Source: Acidobacteriaceae bacterium
Lineage (GTDB): Bacteria; Acidobacteriota; Terriglobia; Terriglobales; SbA1
DNA length: 6,294 bases
NCBI GenBank assembly: GCA_003156615.1
Contig: PMHI01000352.1
Location: forward strand, 1 to 6,294
Direction of reading: 5' to 3'
A program made the translations under genes and the position numbers. Below, in pieces: positions 85-6,294 of this stretch (its first letter is position 1; each line of letters opens with the position of its first letter). The notes under the pieces are model-generated. The model was not told the DNA's origin. It saw nothing but the letters and a program-made list of their open reading frames with translations, and did not search any database.

Positions 85-723
85 TCAAGGTGTCAATTTC
101 CCAGTTGCGAGATAGTCCTGCGAAGGAACACCGAATGCATCAGCGACACGATTGAAGAAAGCGAACAAGGCTGTGATGTACACGGCCTCTGAGATCTGTT
201 CTTCTTTCCATCCTGCGATACGCACCTTCTCGACGTCTTCGGGCGTGGATCGGTAGGCAGTGTGAGTAATGAGTTCCACATATTCCAGCAAAGCGCGCTC
301 CGCCGGCGTGAGTCCCGCTTCGTCAAGCTTGCCTTCGACGATTGCTTTTACACATTGATCGGGTGCTCCCTGGACCCGCAGGAAGTAGGCATGGCTGTCC
401 AGTCAATACGGACACCGGTTCAAATAAGAGACGTAGCTGGCAATCATCTCTTTATGTCGACGGGAAAGATGCCCCTCCGAAAAGTGGACCGTGTTTCCTA
501 GGGCGATTACGCTTCGCAGGAAGTCAGGCCGGGCTCCGAAGCACTTGATGATGCCGGGAACCTGCTGTCTCCCCGACCCAGCTCGCCAAAAGTCATAAGC
601 CGCAGCCGTTTCTCCGGTGGCGTCAGCATCTTCAATGATCTTGATTTTGGTAGCCGGTTTTGCGGCTGGGACGCCTTCTACGCTATCGCGAATCCTAGTA
701 CTGGTCTGTTCACGCTTTGGCAT
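85..723 (-). CDS. AhpD-like (carboxymuconolactone decarboxylase fold) selenoprotein with CxxU active site
   Basis: Read with UGA at 405-403 as selenocysteine, this is a 212-residue protein. Residues 1-25 are a polar leader. The AhpD-like helical domain follows, with Glu92, then Cys104-Pro-Tyr-Sec107 and His111, matching the E...CxxCxxxH redox site of AhpD and peroxidase-related enzymes, with Sec in place of the second Cys. Downstream of the UGA the frame continues without interruption as family-like sequence (LDSHAYFLRVQGAP, later LTPAERALLEYVELIT and ALFAFFNRVADAFGVP), ending at a UGA at 87-85. In mycobacterial AhpD the matching second cysteine acts with a Glu/His relay in disulfide exchange, so Sec here would be the more nucleophilic residue of a thiol-selenol pair (inference). 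The start at 723 has AGAGG (736-732) 8 bases upstream. The likely role is a cytoplasmic peroxidase or disulfide reductase of unknown partner. The alternative, a pseudogene broken by one Cys-to-stop mutation, is less likely because the frame is otherwise intact and a second gene here has the same pattern. Confidence 0.85.
360..402 (-). promoter_or_regulatory. Candidate bacterial SECIS region downstream of the AhpD-like UGA
   Basis: Bacterial selenocysteine insertion needs a SelB-binding hairpin just 3' of the UGA, inside the coding sequence. Two mutually exclusive stems are visible on the minus strand. One is CUGGAC/GUCCAG (402-397 with 375-370), a perfect 6-bp stem beginning at the base after the UGA and enclosing 21 bases. 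The other is CGGGU/ACCCG (378-374 with 364-360), 5 bp with a 9-base loop starting 29 bases after the UGA. Neither has the usual G at the start of a small apical loop, so the element is less convincing than the one in the deiodinase-like gene. Its exact form is unresolved. Confidence 0.4.
403..405 (-). other. In-frame UGA read as selenocysteine (Sec107 of the AhpD-like protein)
   Basis: The minus-strand codons around this site read Asn-Arg-Cys-Pro-Tyr-UGA-Leu-Asp-Ser-His. The UGA falls exactly on the second redox cysteine of the CxxCxxxH motif. A single base separates UGA from the cysteine codons UGC and UGU, so sequencing error or mutation has to be considered. Placement at the catalytic residue and open coding on both sides favour recoding. 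Confidence 0.83.
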
Positions 724-1136: not shown

Positions 1137-4100
1137 ATGGGGAGACGCATGAGCAATTTGAGAAGACTGGCCTTTGCGCTAGTTGCGGTCATTGCAGGAG
1201 TGAGCCTCATAAGTTTGAACCTTGCTGGACAGCAGATAACAGGAAGCATCCGCGGAACGGTGGTCGATCCGAGCGGGGCGATTGTGCAAGCCGCTACTGT
1301 TACCGCGAAGCAGATCGAAACCGGCTTAACACGCGTTGCGGTCACAGACCATCAGGGAGAGTACGTGCTGGTCGAACTACCGATTGGGCACTACCAGCTA
1401 GAGACTCAGGCGAAAGGCTTCCAGACTTACCTGCAGCAAGGCATCTCGTTGGATGTGAACGAGACCGCGACGGTTGGCATTCGCCTGAAGGTCGGGTCGG
1501 AAACGCAGCAGGTGGAAGTGAGCGCGAATGCGGCTCTGGTGCAGTCCACAGTCAGCAGTCTCGGCGAAGCCGTGATGGAGCGCGAGATCCTCGACCTCCC
1601 GCTGGACGGGCGCAATTTTTCCCAGCTGGGACTTCTTCAGCCCGGCGTCGTGCCCCTGACTGCCGGACTTCTTGAAGCCGGCGGTCCCGCGCGACAGAAT
1701 CAGGCCTATGCCGTCGACGGCCAGCGGCCGGAGTCGAACAACTTTATGATCGATGGCGCCGACAACGAAAGCTCTGTGGACGGCGGATTTGTGCTCAAAC
1801 CGCCGATTGACGCGATTGCCGAGTTCAAAATTCTGAGCCACAACGCGAATGCAGAATTCGGCCGGAACACGGGCTCTACCACCAACATAGTTACGCGGTC
1901 AGGATCCAATTCGTTTCATGGGGCCGCCTGGGAGTTCCTGCGCAACGATGCCATGGATTCCTCCGATTACTTCACGCAAAGCGTGCAGCCGTTGAAGCAG
2001 AACCAGTTCGGCGCAACCTTTGGTGGGCCGATTCTAAAGGATAAGACTTTCTTTTTCGGATATTACGAAGGCTTCCGCAACCGCCAGGGTGAGACCGTGC
2101 CTGCGACCGTGCCGTCCGCGGCAGAAAGGCAAGGCAATTTTGCGGAGGAGTGTACGGATCTCCCCGGAGCCTCGTTCAATCCGAGCGGCCTGTGCAGCAA
2201 CCCCAATGGGCAACTCACCTTTTTTTTAACACCGGTGCCAACGCCGGTGCCCTTCAACCAAATGACTCTGTTCACGCCCATCGATCCGATTGCGACCAAT
2301 GTCTTGCCCTTTTTTCCTCTGCCAAACCAGGGGGAAAATGGGTTCATCGCTACGCAGACGCTAAGCGAGAATAACGACCAATTCGGCGTACGCGTGGATC
2401 ACTACCTTTCCCGCGCGGACACATTGAATTTCCGCTATATGTTCAGCGCAGGTCCAACCACGGATCCGCTCTCGCCGGTGGGAGCCAATGTGCCCGGCTT
2501 TCCGGTAGGCGAGGATGATCGCGCACAGAACTTTGTGGCGCAGGAGACGCACCTGTTTTCGCCGAACACGATCGGCGTGGCGCGCTTTTCCTACCTCCGC
2601 AATAAGTTCCTGCTCGATGAGCACCTGAATCATGAGTCGCCGTCGGACTTAGGCTTTCAGTACGCTCCGACGTTGCCTTCAGCTGCCGGACCTCCATTTA
2701 TTCAGGTCGGAGGATACGCCTCGGTGGGCGATCCCATTACCGGACCGCGCAACACGTTTCAGAATACCTTCGACCCCTCCGCCTCTCTGAGCTGGGTTCA
2801 CGGTCGCCACGAGTTTAAATTCGGTGGAGGCTATCGGCGCGACCAGATCAACGCCTTGCAGGGTATCGCCAGCAACGGCTTCTTTGTGTTCTCCAACTTC
2901 CCCTACAGTGACGGATTCGCCAGCTTCCTGTCTGGCAATCCCGTGGTCTTTCTGCAGGGTGGAGGTAATTTTGCTCGTGAAATCCGCGACCGAGCCCTGG
3001 ATGCTTATGGCCAGGATACCTACAAGGTCAGTTCTCGCCTCACCTTGAACTTGGGACTTCGCTATGAGCTGCCCTTTCCCTCAACGGAAAGGCACAACGA
3101 GGTCAATCTCTTCGTTCCCGGGGCTCAATCGACAGTCATGCCGAGCGCTCCCGCAGGACTTCTCTATCCCGGCGATCGGGGTGTGCCTGCGGGCTTGATT
3201 CCAACCCAGAAAACCGCTTTCGCTCCGCGCTTCGGCGTTGCCTGGGACCCGCGTGGAGATTCCAAAATGGTGGTCAGTGCTGCCTACGGAATTTTCTACG
3301 AGCCGTACTACACCGGAGAGGGTGGTCCGTTGCAAGACCCCGTCAGTTCGCCTCCTTTCCTCAAGACGCAGCAAATTAGTTTCCCCATCAACTCCTTTGC
3401 CAACCCGTTCTACACGCCGAATCCTTTCAGTCAGGCTTTTCCCGAGCCGATGACCCTGCTCGTAGTCGCCCGCAATCTCCATCTGCCCTACGCGCAGGAT
3501 TGGAATCTGAACATTCAACAGTCTTTTGGCGCAGACTGGCTCTTTCAGATCGGGTACGTGGGTACGACTGGTGTGAGGCTACCGCGATTCATTGAAGGCA
3601 ATCCGCCAGTCTTTATCCCTGGCGTGGACACGACCAGCGCTGGCTGTTCGGTGGCGAGCCCGTGTCCAATTTCCACCGAGAGCAATGTGAACCAGCGGCG
3701 CCTCTATTCTGGATGCACCCTAGCGAACCCGAACAATTGCATTTACAGTTCCGTCGGGGAAATCGCCAGCGTGGCAAACTCCAGCTATAACGCCTTGCAA
3801 ACCAGCTTGCGCAAACGCTTCAGCCACGGTCTGTCCTTCCTGGCGTCCTACACCTGGTCGCATGCGATCGATGACGTGTCTTCGTTCAACATTACCGGCT
3901 CTGCTTCGCAACCCGTCGCCGGAGAAAATGACCTGGCGCAAGACCCATTCGATCTGGCGGCCGAGCGCGGCCGGTCGATGTTCGATTCCCGCAATCGTTT
4001 TGTGCTGAGTTATCAGTGGGTGCTGCCATTCCTCGCGCATTCCAGCAGTTGGTATGGGCATGTGTTCGGCAACTGGCAGTTGAACGGAATTGTGACTGCC

Positions 4101-4541
4101 ATGAGCGGCGGGCCCTTCACGGTATTCGACTCGAACGACGTTTCGCTGCAAGGGCAGGCACCGGAGATCACCGGCTTCTCCGCAAACCGTCCCAGTCTGA
4201 TTGGCAACCCAAACTCCGGTCCGCGAACGCCTCAGGAATGGTTCAACGTGAGCGCTTTTCAGCAACTCCAGCCCGATCCTCTAGGCCGGTTCGAAGTCTT
4301 CGGGGACGAAGGCAGGAACGTGGTCCAGGGCCCGGGATACGTGGACTGGGACGCATCGGCCTTCAAGAACATTCGGCTGACGGAATCGAAACAGCTTCAA
4401 TTCCGCGGTGAATTGTTTAATCTGCTGAACCATACCAATCTCCGCTTGCCGGTCAGTGACATCGAATCGCCGACGTTCGGCCAAATTCAGTCGGATATAA
4501 GCCCGCGGGTGATCCAGGTGGCGCTGAAGTTCTTGTTTTAA
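1137..4541 (+). CDS. Oar-like TonB-dependent receptor with carboxypeptidase-regulatory-like domain
   Basis: This 1134-residue outer-membrane protein probably imports a large or scarce ligand using TonB-supplied energy; the ligand is unknown. A basic start and hydrophobic segment (about residues 8-31, ending LNLAG before QQITG) form a signal peptide. Residues about 33-125 are a beta-sandwich carboxypeptidase-regulatory-like domain (SIRGTVVDPSGAIVQAATV, then GEYVLVELPIGHYQLE). A plug domain follows (LDLPLDGRNFSQLGLLQPG, YAVDGQRPESNNFMIDGADN), then a long beta-barrel with FFFGYYEGFRNRQG and the late GPGYVDWDASAFKNIRLTE and FNLLNHTNLR motifs. The chain ends in aromatic Phe (QVALKFLF), the usual signal for barrel assembly. 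No clear TonB box was identified. Start choice is ambiguous: ATG at 1137 has GAGG (1129-1132) and ATG at 1149 has GGGGAG (1139-1144), both only 4 bases upstream; either leaves a signal peptide. The architecture is typical of Acidobacteriota. It heads a probable operon with the next genes. Confidence 0.93.
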   Translation: MGRRMSNLRRLAFALVAVIAGVSLISLNLAGQQITGSIRGTVVDPSGAIVQAATVTAKQIETGLTRVAVTDHQGEYVLVELPIGHYQLETQAKGFQTYLQQGISLDVNETATVGIRLKVGSETQQVEVSANAALVQSTVSSLGEAVMEREILDLPLDGRNFSQLGLLQPGVVPLTAGLLEAGGPARQNQAYAVDGQRPESNNFMIDGADNESSVDGGFVLKPPIDAIAEFKILSHNANAEFGRNTGSTTNIVTRSGSNSFHGAAWEFLRNDAMDSSDYFTQSVQPLKQNQFGATFGGPILKDKTFFFGYYEGFRNRQGETVPATVPSAAERQGNFAEECTDLPGASFNPSGLCSNPNGQLTFFLTPVPTPVPFNQMTLFTPIDPIATNVLPFFPLPNQGENGFIATQTLSENNDQFGVRVDHYLSRADTLNFRYMFSAGPTTDPLSPVGANVPGFPVGEDDRAQNFVAQETHLFSPNTIGVARFSYLRNKFLLDEHLNHESPSDLGFQYAPTLPSAAGPPFIQVGGYASVGDPITGPRNTFQNTFDPSASLSWVHGRHEFKFGGGYRRDQINALQGIASNGFFVFSNFPYSDGFASFLSGNPVVFLQGGGNFAREIRDRALDAYGQDTYKVSSRLTLNLGLRYELPFPSTERHNEVNLFVPGAQSTVMPSAPAGLLYPGDRGVPAGLIPTQKTAFAPRFGVAWDPRGDSKMVVSAAYGIFYEPYYTGEGGPLQDPVSSPPFLKTQQISFPINSFANPFYTPNPFSQAFPEPMTLLVVARNLHLPYAQDWNLNIQQSFGADWLFQIGYVGTTGVRLPRFIEGNPPVFIPGVDTTSAGCSVASPCPISTESNVNQRRLYSGCTLANPNNCIYSSVGEIASVANSSYNALQTSLRKRFSHGLSFLASYTWSHAIDDVSSFNITGSASQPVAGENDLAQDPFDLAAERGRSMFDSRNRFVLSYQWVLPFLAHSSSWYGHVFGNWQLNGIVTAMSGGPFTVFDSNDVSLQGQAPEITGFSANRPSLIGNPNSGPRTPQEWFNVSAFQQLQPDPLGRFEVFGDEGRNVVQGPGYVDWDASAFKNIRLTESKQLQFRGELFNLLNHTNLRLPVSDIESPTFGQIQSDISPRVIQVALKFLF

Positions 4542-4563: not shown

Positions 4564-5142
4564 ATGGCTCACATCAAAGTTCCCGATAATCTGCCCGGCA
4601 TTTTAGGCCCGATGGCAATCAGCCCCGAAACTGCCAAAGCTCTACGCGAATTGGCAGAGGTTCTGTTGCGCGGTCCGAACACTCTCACTTCTGGGGAACG
4701 CGAAATCATTGCAACCTACGTTTCGTCTCAGAACGATTGCTGTTTCTGCCAGCTTTCGCATGGTGCGGCGGCAGCCGAGCATCTTGGTGGGAACTACGAA
4801 CTGATCGATCGAATCAAACAGAATTTCGGCACAGCCGAGATTTCGGAGAAGCTAAGGGCACTGCTGGCGATTGCGGGCAAAGTGCAAAAGGGGGGCAAAC
4901 ACGTGACTGGGGAAGATGTCGAGCGGGCACGTCAGCAGGGCGCAACCGATAAGGAGATCCACGACACGGTTCTGATCGCGGCCGCATTCTGCATGTACAA
5001 CCGCTACGTGGATGGTCTGGGGACTTGGCAGCCGACTGATCCGAAAGCCTACCGCGAAATGGGGAGGAGCATGGCCGATGCCGGCTACTTAAAACCGAAC
5101 CGGGATGCGCTAAACTCTGATGCACCAGTGGAAGCGGCCTGA
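4564..5142 (+). CDS. AhpD-like (carboxymuconolactone decarboxylase family) protein, cysteine form
   Basis: This 192-residue protein has no signal peptide and is probably cytoplasmic. Glu46 precedes Cys59-Cys60-Phe-Cys62 and His66, giving the CxxCxxxH redox site of AhpD and peroxidase-related proteins; the extra Cys60 inside the motif is slightly unusual. After it come helical segments (SEKLRALLAIAGKVQKGG, then TDKEIHDTVLIAAAFCMYNR) typical of the fold. The N-terminal signature MAHIKVPDNLPGILGPMAIS and the C-terminal YREMGRSMADAGYL recur in the broken paralog immediately downstream. The likely activity is thiol-dependent peroxide or disulfide reduction; the electron donor and substrate are not visible. 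It follows the receptor by 22 bases and is probably co-transcribed. It is the cysteine counterpart of the selenocysteine protein at 723-85, although the two are clearly divergent. Confidence 0.88.
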   Translation: MAHIKVPDNLPGILGPMAISPETAKALRELAEVLLRGPNTLTSGEREIIATYVSSQNDCCFCQLSHGAAAAEHLGGNYELIDRIKQNFGTAEISEKLRALLAIAGKVQKGGKHVTGEDVERARQQGATDKEIHDTVLIAAAFCMYNRYVDGLGTWQPTDPKAYREMGRSMADAGYLKPNRDALNSDAPVEAA

Positions 5143-5167: not shown

Positions 5168-5333
5168 ATGGCCCGCATTCAATTTCCTGAAGGATTGCCA
5201 GGCATTCGCGGCCCGTGGGTATTCAGCCCTGAAATCACCAAATATATATCGCGAAAATGGCCGACGACTGGCTGAAGTGGGCTATGTCGAATCGACCGCG
5301 CAAGTACATGCGATCGAGAAACAATATGACTAG
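5168..5333 (+). pseudogene. Internally deleted third AhpD-like gene
   Basis: A ribosome binding site (AGGA, 5158-5161) and ATG at 5168 open a frame MARIQFPEGLPGIRGPWVFS that closely parallels the first 25 residues of the gene just upstream. Around 5243-5249, an ATATATAT stretch, similarity jumps to the C-terminal end in another frame: from 5247, YRENGRRLAEVGYVES matches YREMGRSMADAGYL (residues 163-176) of the upstream protein and runs to a TAG at 5331-5333. About 137 codons, including the whole redox motif, are missing and the two ends are out of phase. The first frame now stops at 5275 after 35 residues. This is a tandem duplicate destroyed by deletion. The residual 35-codon frame could still be translated, but a function is unlikely. 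Confidence 0.8.
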
Positions 5334-6075
5334 TCGTCGTTTGACGTTGAGTCCGTTCGCTCGAAGCCTGCTGCTCAGACTATTTTTTGTTCTGATCATT
5401 GCTTACCTTTCATTCGGAACTTTTGTCTGGTGGGCGATGCATCAGCCTCCCGAGACTTTCGGGCGGGTGATGGCCAGAATGCCTGGCCCCATCCCCTTTT
5501 TGCTTTTTCCATTTGAAACTGCCTGGCTACGCGCTCGTGCCGGAACGCTTCATACGGGAGATGCCGCGCCAGACTTTTCGCTGTTCAAGGTGGACAAGAG
5601 TGAGCGGGTTCAGCTCTCCGCGTTAAACCAACGGCAACCAGTGGTGCTGGTATTCGGCAGCTACACGTGACCGCCGTTTCGGCGGGAGGTTCCTGCCCTC
5701 AACAAGCTTTACGAGCAGTATCGCGAGCGCGTGGCATTCCTGGTCGTCTACATTACAGAAGCGCATCCCAGCGACGTGTGGCAAATGGAGAGCAATGTCA
5801 AAGACAAGGTCGTTTTTGCCAGCCCGAAGACAGAAGAAGAAAGAGCATTCGTCGCCGGGGCTTGCGTGCGGAAACTTGGCATCGAATTTCCGGCTGTGCT
5901 CGACGAGTTCGGCAATTCGACCGAACGAGCGTACACCGGCTGGCCTGATCGCATCTATTTGATCGACTCCGAAGGCCGCATTGCTTACAAGAGCAAGCCT
6001 GGCCCTTTTGGATTTAAGCCTGACCAATTGGCGGCAGCGCTGGTTCATACGCTCGGGGCGCTGGCAAGCAGGTAG
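5326..6075 (+). CDS. Membrane-anchored iodothyronine deiodinase-like selenoprotein
   Basis: With UGA at 5668-5670 read as selenocysteine this is a 249-residue protein. Residues about 15-38 form one N-terminal membrane segment after a basic start, so the rest is probably outside the cytoplasm. A thioredoxin-like domain begins near residue 78 (GDAAPDFSLF). The active site is VFGSYT-Sec115-PPF, matching the animal deiodinase GSCTUP motif with Tyr for Cys. The deiodinase signature EAHPSDVW follows at 145-152, then FGNSTERAYTGWPDRIYLI and GRIAYKSKPGPFGFKP at 194-231, also family-like. Vertebrate members reductively remove iodine from thyroid hormones; bacterial members mostly lack known substrates and may be thiol/selenol oxidoreductases or dehalogenases. 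The ATG at 5326 overlaps the stop of the broken gene upstream (ATGACTAG) and is preceded by a weak GAG; an in-phase ATG at 5308 is an alternative, while 5257 lies deep in the old gene. Readers stopping at UGA would see a 114-residue fragment from 5326 plus a separate frame at 5731. Confidence 0.87.
5668..5670 (+). other. In-frame UGA read as selenocysteine (Sec115 of the deiodinase-like protein)
   Basis: The codons read Gly-Ser-Tyr-Thr-UGA-Pro-Pro-Phe. The UGA coincides with the catalytic selenocysteine of the deiodinase family, and the same frame stays open for 134 further codons with conserved family motifs. A hairpin of suitable size and position follows. An ordinary stop would remove most of the catalytic fold. 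Confidence 0.88.
5671..5697 (+). promoter_or_regulatory. Bacterial SECIS hairpin of the deiodinase-like gene
   Basis: GGCGGGA (5681-5687) pairs with UCCUGCC (5691-5697) through seven base pairs, one a G-U wobble, around the loop GGU (5688-5690). The loop begins 17 bases after the UGA. In E. coli fdhF the SelB-binding hairpin has a GGUC loop 18 bases after its UGA, so loop sequence and spacing agree well. The bulged U of the fdhF stem is not present. A competing hairpin, CCGCCG/CGGCGG with loop UUU (5671-5676 with 5680-5685), shares bases with this stem and could compete with it. Confidence 0.7.
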
Positions 6076-6214: not shown

Positions 6215-6294
6215 ATGTCAGAAAGCCAAGTGATCGCTAATCAGAAGACGATTGTCCAGAATCAGAAGACCATCATCGCCAATCAGGCTGCGCT
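6215..6294 (+). CDS. Start of a heptad-repeat (Asn-Gln-Lys-Thr-Ile) protein, cut by the window end
   Basis: The frame opens MSESQVIANQKTIVQNQKTI and then reads IANQAA before the window ends. From residue 7 the sequence is built on a seven-residue unit, (I/V)-x-Asn-Gln-Lys-Thr-Ile, with paired aliphatic residues at the unit borders. Such a pattern favours a long helix, probably a coiled coil or fibrous oligomer. There is no signal peptide or membrane segment in the visible part. I do not recognise a named family. It has its own strong ribosome binding site and lies 139 bases after the deiodinase-like gene, beyond the inverted repeat, so it is probably a separate transcription unit. Confidence 0.65.
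   Translation, partial: MSESQVIANQKTIVQNQKTIIANQAA
6239..6286 (+). repeat. 21-bp tandem repeat encoding the heptads
   Basis: AATCAGAAGAC occurs at 6239-6249 and 6260-6270, and AATCAG recurs at 6281-6286, giving an exact 21-base period that matches one heptad per unit. The DNA itself is conserved between copies, suggesting recent expansion of the repeat. The array may continue past the window. Confidence 0.75.

Follow-up and report, generated by a model that had tools for sequence, protein, structure and literature searches.

A deiodinase-family gene interrupted by an in-frame UGA in an acidobacterium, predicted to encode a membrane-anchored selenoprotein

Does a UGA inside an otherwise open deiodinase-like reading frame end the protein or encode selenocysteine (Sec), and, if it encodes Sec, what might the product do? 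The question is raised by a contig of 6,294 nucleotides from an Acidobacteriaceae bacterium (PMHI01000352.1, assembly GCA_003156615.1), the whole of which is here called the window, and by its frame 5326-6075, which escapes ordinary gene calling because it is interrupted by UGA. A first-pass annotation, made from the letters of the window, had taken this frame for a hidden deiodinase-like selenoprotein with Sec at the catalytic position of the family and with an N-terminal membrane anchor. Sequence comparisons leave the decoding of the UGA as Sec well supported, and, taking decoding and activity together, we consider it likely that the UGA is read as Sec and that the product is a membrane-anchored periplasmic selenol reductase.

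Translation with U at the TGA yields a product of 249 residues that contains GSYT-U115-PPF, EAHPSDVW and GPFGFKP. The Pfam model T4_deiodinase (PF00837) matches residues 63-239 of this read-through product with 110.6 bits (cut-off, 27), the generic models AhpC-TSA (46.1 bits) and Redoxin (43.2 bits) falling far below it. The closest solved relatives by sequence are mouse Dio3 (1.7e-21) and then Dio2 (2.2e-19), and the same two deiodinases are the top fold matches of the structure model, which is consistent with a deiodinase fold. At the N-terminus, the 19-residue Kyte-Doolittle maximum is 2.19 and the model places a helix at residues 10-38, so that this segment is predicted to be a membrane anchor. 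The single in-frame UGA, the predicted place of Sec and the predicted anchor were thus all borne out as the first-pass annotation had described them. The coordinates are collected in Table 1.

Table 1. Features of the window, with positions, strands and the observations that define them
Feature	Position	Strand	Basis or remarks
Deiodinase-family selenoprotein gene, U115 predicted	5326..6075	+	ATG 5326, TGA 5668-5670, TAG 6073-6075
In-frame UGA, predicted to encode Sec, at the place of mouse Dio3 residue 170	5668..5670	+	TGA conserved, Cys in homologues
SECIS-like hairpin (5681-5687 paired with 5691-5697; GGT at 5688-5690 as apical loop)	5681..5697	+	Folding, synonymous shuffles, covariation
Predicted N-terminal membrane anchor, residues 13-38	5362..5439	+	Hydropathy and helix in structure model
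EAHPSDVW loop, residues 145-152 (Dio3 Glu200, His202, Asp205, Trp207)	5758..5781	+	Alignment to Dio3 and Dio2
Codon for Cys180 (candidate resolving cysteine)	5863..5865	+	C in core rows and Cys forms
TonB-dependent-receptor-like outer-membrane protein gene (CarboxypepD_reg and OMP_b-brl_4)	1137..4541	+	Profile matches
CMD/peroxidase-related gene with CCFC motif, between receptor and deiodinase-family genes	4564..5142	+	Ends at TGA
Degenerate remnant of a second CMD gene	5168..5333	+	First part 14/25 identical to the intact CMD gene
Second likely selenoprotein gene, AhpD-like/peroxidase-related, NRCPY-U (CxxU)	85..723	-	TGA at 405-403

A scan of one genome per species returned 26 loci of relatives, 25 of them in acidobacterial records, while the 26th (Crocinitomicaceae) encodes a CGPC thioredoxin-like protein. 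TGA follows [VI]FGSYT in all 24 of the 25 fetched acidobacterial loci that cover the Sec site; L024 starts 3' of that site and hence stands outside the count. In an alignment of 26 genes, window included (rows scoring at least 270, minus L021 and rows with N), TGA fills the Sec column in every row. Stops at unrelated positions in homologues, which the first-pass annotation would have held against its own reading, were looked for, and the remaining in-frame stops are confined to the row ends (columns 1-3 and 242-244). Over all 325 pairs of these genes, the median ratio of nonsynonymous to synonymous polymorphism (pN/pS) is 0.47 before the UGA and 0.24 after it, so that the part 3' of the "stop" is the better conserved one. 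Across 396 genomes of the phylum, a PF00837 match was found in 38 and exceeded the cut-off in 30; TGA is contained in 27 of the 38 over-cut-off matches and in all 17 that score at least 82 bits.

Database proteins point the same way. Among the best 120 of 480 relatives, the residue at the Sec site is C in 59, W in 50, R in 3 and G in 2, with one gap and five sequences that do not cover the site, and within this set every listed relative of less than 50% identity that covers the site carries C and none carries W. Trp and Gly in these copies are probably the work of gene callers that apply genetic codes with TGA as a sense codon. Arg stands at the site in three deiodinase-family proteins (P0059, P0069 and P0081), either as a real change or as an annotation effect, and many of the Trp-carrying metagenome proteins are named peroxiredoxin or peroxidase-related enzyme.

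The machinery for Sec insertion was scored in the genomes of 25 relatives, SelA and SelD in these plus two more, with 14 control genomes alongside. SelB exceeded its cut-off in 21 of 25 (controls, 2/14), SelA in 26 of 27, G001 being the one without it (controls, 1/14), and SelD in 24 of 27, the exceptions being G008, G015 and G024 (controls, 2/14); the SelD gene itself has an in-frame TGA in 21 of the 24 SelD-positive genomes. tRNA-Sec reached at least 64 bits in 18 of 25. Each of the four components is present in most of the relatives' genomes, as the selenoprotein reading presupposed, and none of the 25 lacks all four (G001 has tRNA-Sec and SelD; G015 has SelA).

Downstream of the UGA lies a hairpin resembling a selenocysteine insertion sequence (SECIS) element, with the letters GGCGGGA-GGT-TCCTGCC; it spans nucleotides 14-30 when the U of the UGA is nucleotide 1 (stem, 14-20 with 24-30). 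Compared with shuffles of synonymous codons, the stem of the window has a p value of 0.035, and p is at most 0.05 for 29 of the 51 UGA-site hairpins so tested (52 sites, after a spurious hit in L045 had been discarded, less L025, which has an N). In 36 sites that share one register, 92.2% of cells pair and changes on both sides occur in five of the seven pairs (18 cells); the covariation score is 0.332 versus 0.109 in shuffles, none of 500 shuffles being as high, and pairing falls to 52-61% when the stem partner is slid by 1 to 3 columns. With GGU or GGC as their loop, the aligned hairpins agree with what has been published on bacterial SECIS elements, which the available portion of PMC1088965 describes as hairpins that directly follow the UGA and have a G in a small apical loop.

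If the UGA is read through, the resulting active site can be compared with those of the animal enzymes. Residues were counted in 28 core rows including the window, in 15 sampled from the 59 Cys forms, in 9 sister-clade rows and in 21 distant rows; these counts, as well as a 77-row tree, leave out L024, L025, L026, L058 and rows scoring below 40 or shorter than 140 residues. In Dio3 numbering, Ser167, Thr169, Pro171, Pro172, Phe173, Tyr197, Glu200, His202, Asp205, Trp207, Arg225, Arg260, Gly276 and Pro277 are kept in all 28 core rows. The accessible parts of two papers on the animal enzymes (PMC11592359 and PMC7506546) describe a proton relay or hydrogen-bond network of Glu200, His202, His219, Ser167, Thr169 and Tyr197 and a hormone carboxylate held by Arg275 in Dio3 and by Lys in Dio2, and His219, conserved in mouse Dio1-3, is said there to affect substrate binding (PMC7506546). 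At the His219 position the core rows have Pro (26, among them the window), Thr (1) or Ala (1), at the Arg275 position Pro (26) or Ala (2), at the Tyr257 position Trp throughout (Ala in Dio2) and at the Phe258 position Pro throughout. As judged by alignment, the proton relay is largely retained and the hormone clamp is absent from its usual place. Because the positions of His219 and Arg275 are Pro, iodothyronine is unlikely as a substrate, and thyroid-hormone activity of the product is not supported. Lys224 of the window stands one residue before the column aligned with Arg275, as does an Arg of Dio1 (available text of PMC7506546), so that a shifted basic contact is possible.

The clade also has a cysteine of its own. 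Cys180, which the structure model puts in a helix at residues 170-184, is present in 28/28 core rows, in 15/15 Cys forms and in 34/34 rows of set A2, and it is proposed as a candidate resolving cysteine.

From these elements the following course of events is proposed: the hairpin with its GGU loop, directly 3' of the UGA, would recruit SelB with tRNA-Sec; the single N-terminal helix would hold the deiodinase/thioredoxin-fold domain, likely at the outer face of the inner membrane; the selenolate of Sec115 would attack the electrophilic atom (a peroxide oxygen or an aromatic halogen) of a small molecule; the leaving group would be protonated by the retained relay of Ser112, Thr114, Tyr142, Glu145 and His147; and Cys180 would resolve the oxidised selenium by forming a selenenyl sulfide, to be reduced in turn by a thiol donor of the periplasm.

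Several observations weigh against this reading or narrow it: (i) the gathering score of tRNA-Sec (47) is passed by 22 of the 25 relatives but also by 5 of the 14 controls, which is why the stricter threshold of 64 bits was used; (ii) SelB exceeds its cut-off in 25 of 26 genomes, including six whose best deiodinase-family copy has no TGA, so that its presence does not discriminate and, tried as a marker of the Sec versus the Cys form, it was uninformative; (iii) we infer the machinery of the window's own host from the genomes of its relatives; (iv) 22 of the 51 hairpins miss a p of 0.05 against synonymous shuffles, and L034, L039, L041, L056 and L057 have no stem of more than two pairs in the hairpin register; (v) the 36 covariation rows were picked from 52 for one shared register, a choice that leans towards structure and makes the synonymous-codon test the cleaner one; (vi) an Rfam scan of the window returned 0 matches up to E 1, so that the case for the hairpin is that of the present analysis; (vii) the loss of His219 is not uniform in bacteria, since His still stands there in 1 of the 15 Cys forms and in 9 of the 21 distant rows; (viii) Cys180 is not general to the deiodinase family, being found in 1 of 9 sister-clade rows, while all 21 distant rows lack it, as do the two mouse enzymes; (ix) we infer the periplasmic side, the reductant and the substrate (peroxide or organohalogen); and (x) the genes next to the deiodinase-family gene differ among relatives, the loci beyond the six in which a receptor homologue adjoins having other neighbours.

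Two further accounts of the UGA itself were considered. The frame could be a pseudogene or carry a sequencing error, the UGA being an ordinary stop in place of a decayed Cys codon; gene decay does occur in the neighbourhood, since the degenerate CMD remnant adjoins directly upstream, and the frames of L022 and L025 are broken. However, the presence of TGA in 24/24 covering loci already speaks against a pseudogene at the level of the clade, purifying selection is stronger after the UGA than before it, the hairpin covaries and Sec machinery is found in the relatives' genomes, all of which makes decay or error very improbable. An alternative code in which UGA stands for tryptophan or glycine, as the 50 W and 2 G among the best 120 database relatives might suggest, is scarcely credible given that the CMD gene of the window terminates at TGA, that SelA, SelB, SelD and tRNA-Sec occur in the relatives' genomes and that the listed relatives below 50% identity which cover the Sec site carry Cys without exception.

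As for the activity, the selenol-reductase reading has to be set beside two narrower or more general ones. The same selenoprotein might be a strict reductive dehalogenase, Sec115 stripping I, Br or Cl from aromatic organohalogens that occur naturally in peat and soil, which is a special case overlapping the selenol-reductase reading; reductive dehalogenation by the product, which the first-pass annotation had raised, is possible as far as its sequence goes, and as the strict function we think it unlikely, although worth keeping in mind. Tyr197, Glu200, His202 and Trp207 are retained in 28/28 core rows, and a general thiol peroxidase would presumably not need this loop; moreover, the record titles of 9 among the 25 acidobacterial loci mention palsa, bog, fen or peat, and deiodinases are the best fold matches. 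On the other hand, Pro occupies the equivalents of His219 and Arg275 in 26/28 core rows each, no dehalogenation gene is among the named neighbours (the genes of the window, plus eight proteins from L009 and L010), the available parts of PMC1088965, PMC2398784 and two selenoprotein reviews report no activity measurements on any PF00837 protein from bacteria, and the deiodinase activity of gut bacteria claimed by two clinical reviews comes with no gene named in the passage concerned. A general thiol-disulfide oxidoreductase of the thioredoxin fold, ResA/CcmG-like and without a small-molecule substrate, appears improbable. ResA is membrane-anchored, and ResA/CcmG oxidoreductases and peroxiredoxins share with the product a thioredoxin-like fold and a redox residue that immediately precedes the first core helix; unlike them, the product has the deiodinase loop (EAHPSDxW) and a predicted Sec, in the setting U-P-P-F rather than CxxC or UxxC, and its T4_deiodinase score is far higher than those of the generic models. 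The active-site motif of peroxiredoxins is PxxxT/SxxC, of which the product has Ser at -3 from U115 but Leu, not Pro, at -7.

A selenol reductase of this type would belong to a family that is not new, contrary to the novelty implied by the first-pass annotation. In the accessible portions of the reports, deiodinase-like selenoproteins are known from the Sargasso Sea since 2005, in Sec and Cys forms, with a bacterial SECIS and a redox function thought possible (PMC1088965), and a 2008 Global Ocean Sampling (GOS) paper tables the family with no motif given (PMC2398784). Reviews of 2022 and 2026, as far as their available main texts extend, give the redox motif of the deiodinase-like proteins as UxxC and do not contain the string "Acidobacteri". 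Nor is Sec new to the phylum, since the accessible part of the 2025 deep-Sep paper counts three known selenoprotein genes, unnamed in its table, in the acidobacterium Occallatibacter riparius (PMC12013277). Within the open-licence part of PMC, no paper joining Acidobacteria, selenoprotein and deiodinase was found, none on the selenoproteins of Solibacter usitatus and nothing on the window's clade.

The window shares with the Sargasso/GOS selenoproteins the PF00837 domain, Sec at the catalytic place, Cys homologues and a SECIS-type hairpin after the UGA, and by its sequence the clade is set apart from the reviewed UxxC form by U-P-P-F, with no Cys nearby, and by the distal invariant Cys180; elsewhere in the phylum, the copies L056, L057 and L059 of other genomes do have Cys at the third residue after the UGA. 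The animal deiodinases (Dio3 4tr3 and Dio2 9h48) have in common with it SxTU-PPF, Tyr197, Glu200, His202, Asp205, Trp207, Arg225, Arg260, Gly276-Pro277, the fold and a membrane anchor (predicted in the window); they differ from it in His219 (Pro in the window), Tyr257 (Trp; Ala in Dio2), Phe258 (Pro) and Arg275 (Pro), and Cys180 is the window's own. The SECIS of animal deiodinases lies in the 3' untranslated region, unlike the hairpin of the window, which lies within the coding region. The NCBIfam model NF038285 (deiodinase_rel) gives 201.5 bits over residues 77-242, below its curated cut-off of 250 and with only profile positions 178-343 of 347 matched; seven relatives tried were likewise below 250 bits.

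The suggestion that such a gene bears on the origin of the thyroid-hormone enzymes was followed with trees. In a 58-row tree, the window falls with L001-L003, the core clade encloses the Cys forms, and mouse Dio2 and Dio3 join eight sister-clade rows with GSFT/GSYT/GSCT-U-PPF (support, 99/99), nearest the GSCT rows (69/79), at a point where long branches meet. The mouse rows thus group with an acidobacterial clade but not with that of the window, and the alternatives are not rejected by the approximately unbiased test (mouse with core, p-AU of 0.169; core and sister clade together, p-AU of 0.175); an earlier tree of 77 rows left the mouse placement open. Descent of the animal deiodinases from the window's own clade, taken as a candidate, is unsupported. 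A speculative and rather doubtful extension is that membrane-anchored Sec dehalogenases of peat and forest-soil acidobacteria, with the animal relay and a distal resolving Cys, act on soil organohalogens, in which case the GSCT/GSFT-U-PPF sister clade would be the nearest living bacterial kin to the source of the animal enzymes. The sister-clade rows nearest the mouse enzymes are L034, L039 and L041, which have GSCT-U-PPF, the letters of mouse Dio3 around the Sec site. Separately, L060, L061 and L062, from three genomes, are tandem pairs of deiodinase-domain genes, the first of each pair with Thr at the Sec site (GSSTT) and the second with TGA (GSST-U).

Regarding the neighbourhood, the deiodinase-family gene is immediately preceded by a homologue of the TonB-dependent-receptor-like gene (OMP_b-brl_4) in L002, L003, L004, L006, L010 and L023, only the last 87 residues being visible in L006, and in L002 and L003 there is almost no gap between the two; the sequences of L016, L021 and L024 start too close to the gene for the upstream neighbour to be judged. 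The eight named neighbours of L009 and L010 include a two-component system, ASPIC/UnbV, VWA, DUF2207 and others. The receptor was rejected as a conserved operon partner, its adjacency being limited to these six relatives and the window having the CMD gene in between, and no function was drawn from the neighbours since they vary among loci.

On the opposite strand, the product of 85-723 is likely a second selenoprotein, to judge from its profile match and relatives: TIGR01926 (peroxidase-related) gives 93.3 bits (cut-off, 81.8), TGA-bearing orthologues are present elsewhere in the genomes G008 (87% identity) and G024 (85%), and the CPYU site holds C in 73, W in 45, R in 1 and a gap in 1 of the best 120 of 513 AhpD-like relatives, Trp here too being probably the result of gene callers that take TGA for a Trp codon. 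The Arg, in P0135, may be a real change or an annotation effect. At E 1e-5, none of the 26 fetched loci has a homologue of the CMD gene or of the AhpD-like gene of the window, so that the pairing of two selenoprotein genes is seen only in the window. At its far end (6215-6294), an open frame with repeated NQKTI-type units starts and runs off the window.

To conclude, the bacterial deiodinase family has hardly been studied, the accessible parts of selenoprotein papers listing it or calling a redox role possible, and metagenome databases hold many such proteins as peroxiredoxins, probably with a false Trp at the catalytic residue. In the clade described here, an animal-type Sec site, a predicted anchor and the clade-specific invariant Cys180 come together in an enzyme open to experiment, whose activity would show what role deiodinase chemistry has where no thyroid hormone is expected.
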